The notes under the pieces: generated by a model
The model's input: only the letters and a program-made list of their open reading frames with translations
The model's database searches: none
What the model was told of the DNA's origin: nothing
Part shown: piece after piece, positions 11,352-46,691 of the stretch
Numbering within the stretch: the first letter of the stretch is position 1
Layout: every line of letters starts with the position of its first letter
Source of the DNA: Dehalococcoides mccartyi
Lineage (GTDB): Bacteria > Chloroflexota > Dehalococcoidia > Dehalococcoidales > Dehalococcoidaceae
Length of the DNA stretch: 64,000 bases
NCBI RefSeq assembly: GCF_001889305.1
Contig: NZ_CP013074.1
Span: 992,001-1,056,000, forward strand
Direction of reading: 5' to 3'
Made by a program: the position numbers and the translations under genes

Positions 11352-11428
11352 GGCCCCATGGTGTAGCGGTCTAACATGCCACCCTGTCACGGTGGAGATC
11401 GGGGGTTCGAATCCCCCTGGGGTCGCCA
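11352..11428 (+). tRNA. tRNA-Asp (GTC)
   Basis: Full cloverleaf of 77 nt including encoded CCA: acceptor GGCCCCA/TGGGGTC with one G-T pair, anticodon stem CCACC/GGTGG with loop CTGTCAC (anticodon GTC at 11386-11388), T-arm GGGGG-TTCGAAT-CCCCC, discriminator G. The last 14 nt form the left copy of the prophage attachment repeat, so the tRNA stays intact after integration. Confidence 0.97.
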
Positions 11429-12958
11429 ATTACAGCCTACTTTCTGTTCCTCTACAGCAAAATATTTTATCCGAGCTGTAGTTTCATCAAGTTCTATCCG
11501 GTCTATAAACTCAGGCAGGATAGCCTTTAATTTCTCAGGTGAAGCGGCAAACATATCAATATATTTTGCCCGAATGCCCTCAATCATTGAGTCAGTTATG
11601 TCAGGCAATAACAAATCAATCTCACGCTGGCGGTCTATTTCTGCCAGCTGAAGATATAATTTATTTTTTAAATCAGACCTTTCTTCTATCGGTTGAGTTA
11701 AATTTTCAGGATTCACCCCAGAGGCTATCGCTTCAAAAAATCTTTTTAGCTCAAGTTCTACCTTATTTATTTTAATGAGAAGGTCTTTTCTTTCCCGGTC
11801 ATCTTCCTGCTTATTTTTCTGGTTCTCTCTTGCGAAATATTCAAGCCCAGCCCTTATTCTTTTACTGGTAAAGGCATGGGTTTTCAGATTATCCAAAATA
11901 AATTTTTCTACTGTTTCTTTTTTAACATTTCGGCATGGGGAAATCTTGGCGCCTAATTTTCTTTTGGCACTGCATACATAATAATTGAGGCTGGCATTTG
12001 TATTACCTGTATATAACGCCTGGTGTGCTTTGCACCATAGCAGACCGGTCAATAAATAAGTTCTCTTGCTGTTCTGCGCCCTGCCCTGTATATGAGGCCG
12101 TTTACGTTCCAAAACTGCCTGAACATTATCAAACAGTTCAGGACTGATAATGGCTTCATGGGCATTTTCTTTTCTTATTATATCTTCGGGTTTGGTGTTG
12201 GCCCTTCGCCGGGTCTTCCCATCTACCTGTTTCATAACATTGTAGATTCTTTCACCGAGATATGCCCGGTTACGTAAAAGCGACACAAGGCTGCTGGGGC
12301 TGGTAACAACCCCGGTGGCCTTTATTATTTCCGGCCCGGATGAACCATTGGCACACATTTCAAAGGCTTTTTTAACCCGCGGCGCATAATCCGGGTCTAT
12401 CTCCCAGCCTGTTCTCATTATGGGTTCACCATTTGGTTTAAGCCCTGCAACCTTGCGTACATTCCGATATCCAGTGGCCGCTTTTCCCCCGGTAGAATAC
12501 CCTGCCATAGCTATTTGCTTAAGACCTCTCAAAGTATCTTCTGATACTTGGGAAACATACAGCTCGTCAGCAGCCGCTAAGACAGTTTCCATGAACATAG
12601 CAGAAGCACCCTCAAATTCAGGCTCATGCATGGCTACAAAGCGGATAGAATGGCGTCTGAAGATGCGTGAATAGGCAAGCCTGTGTTCTACGGAGCGGAA
12701 CAAGCGGTTTGACCGCCAGCAGAGAATTATGTCAAATGGTTTCGGATTGGTAGAGGATTTAATAATCTCAATCATGTGCCGGAATGAAGGGCGGTCATCT
12801 GTACGACCGGAGAAACCGGCGTCTGTAAATACTTCTGCTACTTCCCAGCCTTTATCAGCTGCGAATTTACGGCACTCGTCTATCTGGCCGTTGATGGGTA
12901 CTTCTTCTTCAGCCTGCCCTTCAGTACTGACACGGGCATAAATTGCGATTCTAGTCAT
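11387..12958 (-). CDS. int: Large serine recombinase / phage integrase
   Basis: 523 aa as read in the integrated state. N-terminal resolvase domain with the catalytic serine in IYARVSTEGQ, and the motifs ILCWRSNRLFRS and TDAGFSGRTDDRPSF. A recombinase domain follows (GYRNVRKVAGLKPNGEP region), then a zinc-ribbon-like part (LLWCKAHQALYTG ... YYVCSAKRKLG ... CRNVKKE) and a coiled coil (about residues 380-450). The last codons read through attL into the antisense strand of tRNA-Asp; the TGA stop overlaps the anticodon. In the excised circle the reading frame would instead enter the right end of the phage (see 46596-46677). It catalyses integration at attB without host factors in related systems. 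Confidence 0.95.
   Translation of the reverse strand: MTRIAIYARVSTEGQAEEEVPINGQIDECRKFAADKGWEVAEVFTDAGFSGRTDDRPSFRHMIEIIKSSTNPKPFDIILCWRSNRLFRSVEHRLAYSRIFRRHSIRFVAMHEPEFEGASAMFMETVLAAADELYVSQVSEDTLRGLKQIAMAGYSTGGKAATGYRNVRKVAGLKPNGEPIMRTGWEIDPDYAPRVKKAFEMCANGSSGPEIIKATGVVTSPSSLVSLLRNRAYLGERIYNVMKQVDGKTRRRANTKPEDIIRKENAHEAIISPELFDNVQAVLERKRPHIQGRAQNSKRTYLLTGLLWCKAHQALYTGNTNASLNYYVCSAKRKLGAKISPCRNVKKETVEKFILDNLKTHAFTSKRIRAGLEYFARENQKNKQEDDRERKDLLIKINKVELELKRFFEAIASGVNPENLTQPIEERSDLKNKLYLQLAEIDRQREIDLLLPDITDSMIEGIRAKYIDMFAASPEKLKAILPEFIDRIELDETTARIKYFAVEEQKVGCNWRPQGDSNPRSPP
11415..11428 (+). repeat. attL core (14 bp), 3' end of tRNA-Asp
   Basis: CCCTGGGGTCGCCA, identical to 46678-46691. The flanking bases differ on both sides. 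Confidence 0.9.
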
Positions 12959-15303: not shown

Positions 15304-16194
15304 CTACAATTTTCTCATCTGATATATCAAACGGCCTTGAATTTCTACGTCAGTAGCCAGGAGGCGCTTGTATTCGCCATTGGAACTTTCAAGGCGTAGA
15401 TGGCCGTTCTCTTTGTACACGTGCCTTGCCAGAACCTCTGTACCGCCAATACGGACAGCATAAATCTTGCCGTCTATGATAGGAGCATCCGGGTCTATAA
15501 GTACGTTATCCCCATAATGAAGGCCGTCACCGCTTAAACTCTCACCGCCAATCTTTAACGCAAACACTCTATCTATCTTTCCCTCCACTACTTCTCTCGG
15601 CACTCGTATAACGCCTAAGTCTATCTCTTCTTCAACGGCGGGGTTACCAGCAGGTATAACTCCCCTTACAGGTATCTCAATTATCTCTAGTTTCTGTAGT
15701 TTGTCAGCAAAATCTGATGTGAATGCCTTTAGCATATCCGCCATGGATTTGTCGGGCAATCCCGCTTTGTCGCTAGTTTTCACTTCCATAAGGTCGTCAG
15801 TACTAACGTCCAATGCCCCAGCTAACTTCTGTGCAGTTTGAATGGTTATGTTAGGTATTCTCCCGCACTCAATATGATTAACATAGGTTCTACCTAAACC
15901 GGAGAGTTGACCTAAAGCTTCTTGAGTCAGCCCTTTACTGGTTCTTATCTCCCTCAATTTATCAGCGATGCTCATTTTTTCATTTTTATCACTGGTTTCT
16001 GATTCTATCAACTCTTCTAAGTTAACTCCTAATGCGGCAGACAAGCGACGTGCCACATCCAGTGTAATATTAGTTCGCTTCCCGCTTTCCACGATGCTAA
16101 GGTAGCTTGGGTCTAGCTCTGCTTTTATTGCAAGTTGTCTCTGGCTAATACCACGCAACTCTCTTAACTCTTTAATTTTATCCCCAATTTTCAC
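15304..16194 (-). CDS. CI-type phage repressor, tandem XRE HTH domains plus S24/LexA-like domain
   Basis: 296 aa, GTG start with GGGGG Shine-Dalgarno. Two XRE helix-turn-helix domains in series: residues about 1-65 (ISQRQLAIKAELDPSYLSIV) and about 75-140 (LTQEALGQLSGLGRTYVNHI). Most CI repressors have one. The C-terminal half is LexA/S24-like: RGVIPAGNP could be the cleavage site, GGESLSGDG holds the nucleophile serine position, but at the usual lysine position the sequence reads EVLARHVY, so Arg appears to replace Lys. Autocleavage may therefore be lost or slow. It likely maintains lysogeny by binding the palindromes at 16256-16310. Confidence 0.88.
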   Translation of the reverse strand: MKIGDKIKELRELRGISQRQLAIKAELDPSYLSIVESGKRTNITLDVARRLSAALGVNLEELIESETSDKNEKMSIADKLREIRTSKGLTQEALGQLSGLGRTYVNHIECGRIPNITIQTAQKLAGALDVSTDDLMEVKTSDKAGLPDKSMADMLKAFTSDFADKLQKLEIIEIPVRGVIPAGNPAVEEEIDLGVIRVPREVVEGKIDRVFALKIGGESLSGDGLHYGDNVLIDPDAPIIDGKIYAVRIGGTEVLARHVYKENGHLRLESSNGEYKRLLATDVEIQGRLIYQMRKL

Positions 16195-27618: not shown

Positions 27619-27778
27619 AACTGAACTTATACTGGACAGCCAGATAAAACTGCGTGACCGGTTCTGCACTGAGGCCATGCTGGAACTGCAAGACCGCTAT
27701 CCCGGCAGGCCTCTTTGTAACCGCCAGTGGTTTAATACCTATATCAGGCTGTGGAGCGAGTACGCAAGGACTAACTAA
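27602..27778 (+). CDS. Small hypothetical phage protein
   Basis: 58 aa beginning MTEADRTELILDSQIKLRDR, overlapping the SemiSWEET end by 17 nt. Helical. Its stop overlaps the hicB stop of the opposite strand by 4 nt. Confidence 0.55.
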   Translation: MTEADRTELILDSQIKLRDRFCTEAMLELQDRYPGRPLCNRQWFNTYIRLWSEYARTN

Positions 27779-28143
27779 CTACCTACTGCCTCAGCCAGCT
27801 TCTCAGTAACGAACTGGTTCAGGCTCATCTTATCCATAGACGCCTTTTGAGATAGTTTGCGGTGCAGTTCCGGGCCGACCCGGACATTGAACTTACCGCT
27901 GAACTTCTGCTGTGGTTCAGGAATTTTATACCCACGTTCCAGTTGGTCTTCAAGCCACATTCGCTTGTGGATAGCCAAACTCTCAAGAGCTTCTTCTGGA
28001 GTATCTCCATCACCTATGCACCCTGATAACTCTAAAGCTCTGGCTACATAGTAAGTACCGCCGTCATTATCTTCGTCAGGCTCAATGACAACTGTATAAG
28101 GCAATCCCATATAGTAGTCCAAGTTCTTTGATGCTGTTTTCAT
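27775..28143 (-). CDS. hicB: HicB-type antitoxin
   Basis: 122 aa. An N-terminal degraded-RNase-H HicB fold (YTVVIEPDEDNDGGTYYVAR, then GCIGDGDTPEEALESL) and a C-terminal ribbon-helix-helix (RVGPELHRKLSQKASMDKMS) that would bind the operator. Downstream of hicA, 20 nt apart, on the strand opposite to the phage late genes. Confidence 0.85.
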   Translation of the reverse strand: MKTASKNLDYYMGLPYTVVIEPDEDNDGGTYYVARALELSGCIGDGDTPEEALESLAIHKRMWLEDQLERGYKIPEPQQKFSGKFNVRVGPELHRKLSQKASMDKMSLNQFVTEKLAEAVGS

Positions 28144-28163
28144 ATTAACCTCCAGACAGCCTG

Positions 28164-28385
28164 TTATTTCAGGCTGTCTATTTTATTGATTAAATCCTTT
28201 ACATAGCAAGTGCGAATTGGGTTTGTTCTCGGATAAGGCAGGGAGTATTGCCCAATCTGTGCTTTTGCGTGAGACCCACCCATTTTGATTGTTCCGTATT
28301 TATTGACCAGCCATTCAAAATCTTCAAGTGAAACATTCTTAGGGTTCTGGCGTATCTTCTGCTCTCTTTTATCGCTGGTGGTCAT
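28164..28385 (-). CDS. hicA: HicA-like mRNA interferase toxin
   Basis: 73 aa. A dsRBD-like HicA fold with the catalytic His in KMGGSHAKAQIG and a C-terminal helix (CYVKDLINKIDSL). It cuts mRNA in ribosomes in known systems. First gene of the hicAB pair with AAGGAG upstream. Probably keeps the prophage in the population or acts against other phages; the role is inference. Confidence 0.75.
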   Translation of the reverse strand: MTTSDKREQKIRQNPKNVSLEDFEWLVNKYGTIKMGGSHAKAQIGQYSLPYPRTNPIRTCYVKDLINKIDSLK

Positions 28386-28407
28386 TTCATTAACTCCTTA
28401 CATTCAT

Positions 28408-28436
28408 ATAGTACCATATACAGTACCATGTGTCAA
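28408..28436 (-). promoter_or_regulatory. hicAB promoter with direct-repeat operator
   Basis: On the minus strand TTGACA (28431-28436), 17 nt, TACTAT (28408-28413). Two copies of AGTACCA (28410-28416 and 28422-28428, plus strand), 12 bp apart, cover the spacer and the -10: a likely HicB site. Confidence 0.7.
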
Positions 28437-28479
28437 TACTTTAATCACTGATTATCAAAATATTTTTAGCGGGCAAGTT

Positions 28480-46578: not shown

Positions 46579-46604
46579 AGCCCCCATAACGGGGGCTACT
46601 TTTT
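46579..46604. terminator. Terminator at right end of prophage
   Basis: Stem AGCCCCC/GGGGGCT, loop ATAAC, then ACTTTTT on the plus strand. On the minus strand it directly follows the stop codon of the phage-form integrase C-terminus, so in the circular phage it ends the int transcript. Confidence 0.75.
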
Positions 46605-46677
46605 GCATGCCCGGCGAATATACACTCCATCCGGTATCTTAACTGAGACTGTGAATGATAGTCTGTTGGCTACTACG
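46596..46677 (-). other. Alternative integrase C-terminal coding segment (used in excised circle)
   Basis: When attL and attR recombine to attP, the integrase frame runs from the core (codons W R P Q G) into this stretch: 26 more residues starting VVANRLSFTVSVKIPDGVYI and ending RRACKK, then TAG at 46596-46598 and a terminator hairpin. In the integrated state it is separated from the gene by 35 kb and has no start. The predicted circular-form protein has 541 aa instead of 523. Confidence 0.7.
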
Positions 46678-46691
46678 CCCTGGGGTCGCCA
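46678..46691 (+). repeat. attR core (14 bp)
   Basis: CCCTGGGGTCGCCA, identical to attL. Host DNA resumes at 46692. From there to 46953 no gene was recognised; TATAAT at 46901-46906 is a possible -10 for the next gene. Confidence 0.9.

Follow-up and report, generated by a model that had tools for sequence, protein, structure and literature searches.

Sequence evidence for an att-dependent integrase C-terminus in a Dehalococcoides mccartyi prophage integrated at tRNA-Asp

The large serine integrase of a prophage located at tRNA-Asp in Dehalococcoides mccartyi has a C-terminus that, as the sequence data support well, depends on the state of its attachment site, with a 541-aa form encoded by the circular phage and a 523-aa form encoded by the lysogen. 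The DNA analyzed here (hereafter the window) is a stretch of 64,000 nucleotides that forms part of a 1.52-Mb genome. Both forms have residues 1 to 515 in common, after which the reading frame continues either into eight host-coded residues (DSNPRSPP) or into 26 phage-coded residues (VVANRLSFTVSVKIPDGVYIRRACKK). At the level of sequence, we consider this exchange very probably real.

The integrase frame at the prophage ends

In agreement with the initial annotation, which had the integrase frame crossing attL, an ORF on the reverse strand (11387-12958) runs through a 14-bp core, CCCTGGGGTCGCCA, that occurs in two copies and no others in the whole window and that constitutes the final 14 bases of tRNA-Asp (Table 1). 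The attL core encodes W511 to Q514 plus two bases of codon 515. The same annotation had the lysogen form ending in eight host residues read antisense to tRNA-Asp; translation and ARAGORN coordinates agree on this point, and the stop codon at 11387-11389 overlaps the anticodon at 11386-11388. At the right end of the prophage lies the C-terminal tail of the circle form, separated in the lysogen from the rest of the gene. When the two prophage ends are joined in silico, the frame stays open and yields 541 aa; the predicted gain of 26 residues from the 46677-46596 region is borne out by this computed join and by the homologous tail of a related phage described below. The further proposal that the circle form stops just before a terminator holds in part: a hairpin is indeed present, but it overlaps the stop codon by 2 bp and carries its T run on the + strand, and is therefore not clearly the terminator of the integrase gene itself.

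Table 1. Coordinates in the window of the integrase gene, its two alternative ends and the att cores
Feature	Coordinates	Strand	Basis
Large serine integrase gene, prophage form	11390..12958 (stop codon 11387-11389)	-	ORF of 523 aa; Pfam domains
Host-coded integrase end in the lysogen: 8 codons (DSNPRSPP) and TGA stop	11387..11413	-	Translation; tRNA coordinates
tRNA-Asp (GTC), integration target	11352..11428	+	ARAGORN; identical tRNA at the empty site of G002
attL core, CCCTGGGGTCGCCA	11415..11428		Repeat
attR core, same sequence as attL core	46678..46691		Repeat; flank beyond corresponds to the empty site of G002
Phage-coded integrase end of the circle form: 26 codons (VVANRLSFTVSVKIPDGVYIRRACKK), preceded by the third base of codon 515	46599..46677	-	Computed join; homologous tail in L034
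TAG stop of the 541-aa circle form	46596..46598	-	Identical stop codon at the corresponding position of L034
Terminator-like hairpin with T run on the + strand	46579..46597	+	

The join of the prophage ends is not merely hypothetical because both of its counterparts exist in nature, as an empty attB in sister genome G002, in which the same tRNA-Asp is followed directly by the sequence that lies beyond attR in the window (TTGAGCTTCTTTTT...), and as the natural attP of a related phage, L034. Sister genome G001 has, next to its tRNA-Asp, a decayed integrase C-terminus (L067, G001:C1:950330-950600), the remnant of an old integration at the same site. The element between the att cores is a prophage that carries terminase, portal, protease, major head protein and tape measure genes of a tailed phage, together with a repressor-like gene at 15304-16194; attP is located in the integrase gene instead of in the latter, and the insertion point is tRNA-Asp, not ssrA.

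Domain searches identified Pfam Resolvase (4.8e-27), Recombinase and Zn_ribbon_recom domains in the window integrase, which is thus a serine recombinase and not a tyrosine recombinase as in phage Mx8. The catalytic serine S11 is invariant in our alignments, and the nearest solved structures are those of the SPbeta YokA, Bxb1, phiC31 and A118 integrases. In AlphaFold models of the 541-aa L034 protein and of the 523-aa window protein, one of which shows paired long helices at residues 365-449 (coiled coil), confidence is for the most part good as far as roughly residue 500, and pLDDT drops under 50 for most of what follows, with a weak strand predicted at residues 522-528 of the long form; domain placement is uncertain (pTM of 0.43). 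Since both tails lie beyond the confident fold, the exchange appears, in these models, not to touch the part of the enzyme responsible for catalysis and DNA binding.

A natural attP in a related phage and conservation of the circle tail

L034 (IMG/VR contig 3300050186_000001, 31,387 bp) is probably a circular genome, as read from its 105-bp direct terminal repeat. Its integrase, 84% identical to that of the window, crosses the same 14-bp core, which is present in a single copy with no tRNA beyond it, and is exactly 541 residues long, ending in the tail VGDKRLSFTISVKIPDGIYIRQTCRK. A relative that keeps the 26-residue end, as one would look for if the two forms exist, is therefore available, with 18 of 26 tail residues identical to those predicted for the window. 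We also searched for an attP sequence that breaks the frame and for a crossover outside the 14-bp core, and found neither; the natural attP of L034 keeps the frame open. Large serine integrases act on short symmetric att sites and cross over at a central dinucleotide. In the attP of L034, 17 of 28 pairs (P about 0.0002) fit an even-centred dyad whose midpoint falls inside the core, at the equivalent of 11417/11418, which suggests that the crossover probably occurs near this point; the window itself scores 13 of 28 at that midpoint, a value short of significance (P about 0.14).

Searches of IMG/VR for further attP forms added none to L034, which remains the one independent relative found. A tail-peptide pattern matched only the window prophage, L034 and unrelated proteins; a DNA pattern of the core followed by CG matched contigs that are otherwise unrelated; and a pattern combining the integrase end with the core returned just the two known records. 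For a candidate second isolate, L102 (IMGVR 2639762808), comparison of 2500 bases with the window gave 100% identity, and this record was not counted as independent.

An open frame of 26 codons is by itself weak evidence for a coding tail, yet the occurrence of the same tail with the same stop in L034 points to more than chance. The two tails differ by 10 synonymous and 10 nonsynonymous changes, mainly synonymous or conservative in effect, and for this single pair of sequences, on which the whole selection test is based, dN/dS is approximately 0.22 in the tail versus 0.10 in the integrase body. When an equal number of changes was placed at random, an identity of 18/26 was reached in 0.7% of trials (P about 0.007), and in 0.2% of trials when residues 520-541 alone were considered. 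Conservation is nearly as high in one of the antisense frames of the tail (17/25), the third positions of which fall on the same bases as those of the integrase frame, so that the signal at codon level is not specific to the latter. We also considered conservation of an attP binding site as the sole cause. The minimal arm of a serine integrase attP is about 25 bp, and conservation persists in residues 524-541, roughly 27 to 80 bp past the core, which led us to reject this explanation. Taken together, the comparison provides evidence, albeit modest, that the circle tail is under selection.

The DNA that follows the integrase gene differs between the two phages. L034 has no hairpin directly after the integrase stop, where HicAB genes are found instead. 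The HicB-like antitoxin region of L034 (11633-12296) sits between the integrase stop and a hairpin beside attP, and its counterpart in the window, 86% identical in DNA sequence, lies in the middle of the prophage (27775-28444), so that this region has moved within the phage genome.

Integrase ends among relatives of the same bacterial class

We surveyed 44 loci with a full-length integrase ORF of the same family and bacterial class, 38 after removal of duplicates. An antisense run into a tRNA or tmRNA gene was detected in 32 of the 44 (26 of the 38 distinct loci), a share that is no unbiased estimate given that the loci are the best-scoring matches and that ORF ends were assigned mechanically. 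The frame stops inside the RNA gene in 18 of these overlaps (15 distinct) and reads through it in the other 14 (11 distinct). Such overlaps thus seem common among serine integrases of this class, and the best-scoring loci carry many differing host-coded ends. G001 contains one integrase, identical over 1400 of 1400 bases, at both tRNA-Ala-GGC and tRNA-Ala-CGC, and the two copies differ in their host-coded ends, GGAGGIRTLYLLTASQTFSQVNYGPSNR and GGAEGIRTPDLCDANAALSQLSYSPM; the integrase found at tRNA-Ala loci (L203, L205 and L215, in G001 and G002) is a more distant member of the family. Likewise, the genome of the window encodes three DsiB-like integrases (L041, L042 and L043, G000) whose sequences match as far as the ssrA repeat, past which their tails are unrelated. 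From the survey, the G001 pair and the DsiB-like copies, the setting of the C-terminus by the integration site looks routine in this class.

Several further observations concern the attachment sites of sister elements. A tRNA-Ala 3′ fragment in L220 (G010:C27:5128-5143) lies between the inverted arms CGGTTCTAGATATCG and CAGTATTCTGAACCG and looks like the symmetric attP of a sister integrase; the frame there reads in the sense direction of the tRNA fragment. In L049-L063 and other loci, a motif close to TATCAATAGGTAGAAC directly follows the tRNA CCA, encodes VLPID in sister integrases and is probably an att arm within the coding sequence. Searches of sister genomes with 16-bp tRNA 3′ ends revealed no clear attR for the sister elements, perhaps because their cores are shorter. 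In the window's genome, a second, partial tRNA-Ala-GGC lies about 16 kb from the intact gene (L216, G000:C1:186714-186729; L210, 170440-170455), which perhaps marks another integrated element.

Possible consequences of the exchange and comparison with known systems

In the model that we propose, the phage is temperate and tailed, and it uses its large serine integrase, the gene of which contains attP near the 3′ end, to insert at the 3′ end of tRNA-Asp. Before integration, the gene would continue into phage DNA and specify the 541-aa enzyme. Recombination within the 14-bp core would strand the last 26 codons at the far end of the prophage, and the gene would gain eight codons read from the tRNA's antisense strand instead, which would leave the lysogen able to make only the 523-aa enzyme; excision would bring back the long form. 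We infer that both proteins are made and that the form under selection is the 541-aa enzyme acting on attP × attB.

We give even odds to the possibility that the exchange is a passive by-product of a gene that runs over attP, with inconsequential, unstructured tails and a host end set by whichever antisense tRNA frame is open. This possibility is consistent with the position of both tails outside the confident AlphaFold fold, with the wide variation of host-coded tails among relatives, including the unrelated post-repeat tails of DsiB copies in the same genome, and with the fact that all three antisense frames of tRNA-Asp are open over most of the gene, such that entry of the frame needs no selection. 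On the contrary, it does not account for the conservation of the 26-residue circle tail in L034, even past the likely reach of the attP binding site. An effect at the RNA level is unlikely: expression would be altered because the integrase transcript is convergent with tRNA-Asp in the lysogen and meets phage DNA and a hairpin in the circle, an idea supported by the convergent overlap at attL and by the hairpin at 46579-46597, but L034 has HicAB genes rather than a hairpin directly after the stop, and such an effect would not explain why amino acids of the tail are conserved. A fixed prophage that no longer excises, with the exchange absent from the strain today, is very unlikely. The decayed remnant that is all G001 retains at the same tRNA speaks in favor of this idea; against it are an intact integrase, identical core copies, the tailed-phage and repressor genes listed above, and a related phage that exists as a separate contig with terminal repeats.

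For the att-dependent C-terminus itself, a functional switch is possible. It is conceivable, with a likelihood somewhat short of even, that the tail mildly aids integration or stability and that its loss lowers integrase activity in the lysogen; otherwise the exchange would be neutral. We regard as doubtful a stronger version, a reversible DNA-encoded switch in which the phage tail is needed for efficient integration and the tRNA-coded end lowers or redirects activity, thereby stabilizing lysogeny without any change in expression, and a true directional or stability switch seems similarly improbable. An effect on direction or stability is favored by a tail in L034 kept more than random change would leave; a strong one is disfavored by the location of both tails past the confident fold and by the diversity of host ends.

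These findings give concrete form to a remark made in 2011 on the integrases of Dehalococcoides: the present case can be tested, since the sequences of both forms are available. Serine integrases are widely used in genome engineering, and if the tails matter, these enzymes would carry an inbuilt means of altering themselves after one reaction. The analysis is also a warning for annotation, since what is listed as the C-terminus of an integrase, GDSNPR for example, can be a tRNA read in antisense.

The integrases of SPbeta (YokA), Bxb1, phiC31 and A118 share their domain order and fold family with the window integrase. The integrase of Mx8 is a tyrosine integrase, alike in working to the serine integrase described here but not homologous to it, and the host end in the window is antisense to a tRNA. 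In IntP of the Myxococcus phage Mx8, and also in Mx9, attP lies inside the integrase coding sequence as it does in the window, and integration replaces the C-terminus with a new 3′ end; the altered Mx8 enzyme was tested and, according to a review of Myxococcus phages, remains active, its activity being modified, with changed specificity, rather than lost (PMC6070905), whereas the two forms in the window are known from their sequences. Closer in host, DsiB is also a serine integrase of the Dehalococcoides group, the frame of which overlaps attL and continues in antisense into ssrA, a structural RNA gene, and its authors suggested in 2011 that full function may be confined to the circle (PMC3146451). 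DsiB targets ssrA and is carried by genomic islands rather than phages (PMC3146451), in contrast with the tRNA-Asp prophage of the window; the two proteins are only about 23-24% identical, and the post-repeat tails of DsiB are not conserved among the copies seen. In mycobacteriophage BPs, the attachment site is within a phage gene and the C-terminus of the product depends on integration, but the altered protein is a repressor with a known regulatory role (PMC4557955), and in the window it is the integrase, with attP outside the repressor gene. Islander allows for the Mx8 and SSV integrases that extend across attP, and its 2014 paper stated that tRNA genes were not known as targets of serine integrases (PMC4383910); contrary to this statement, serine integrases of the present bacterial class appear to be commonly located at the 3′ ends of tRNA genes, with att lying within the integrase gene. 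What is new here is a serine phage integrase at a tRNA gene for which both forms are documented by sequence.
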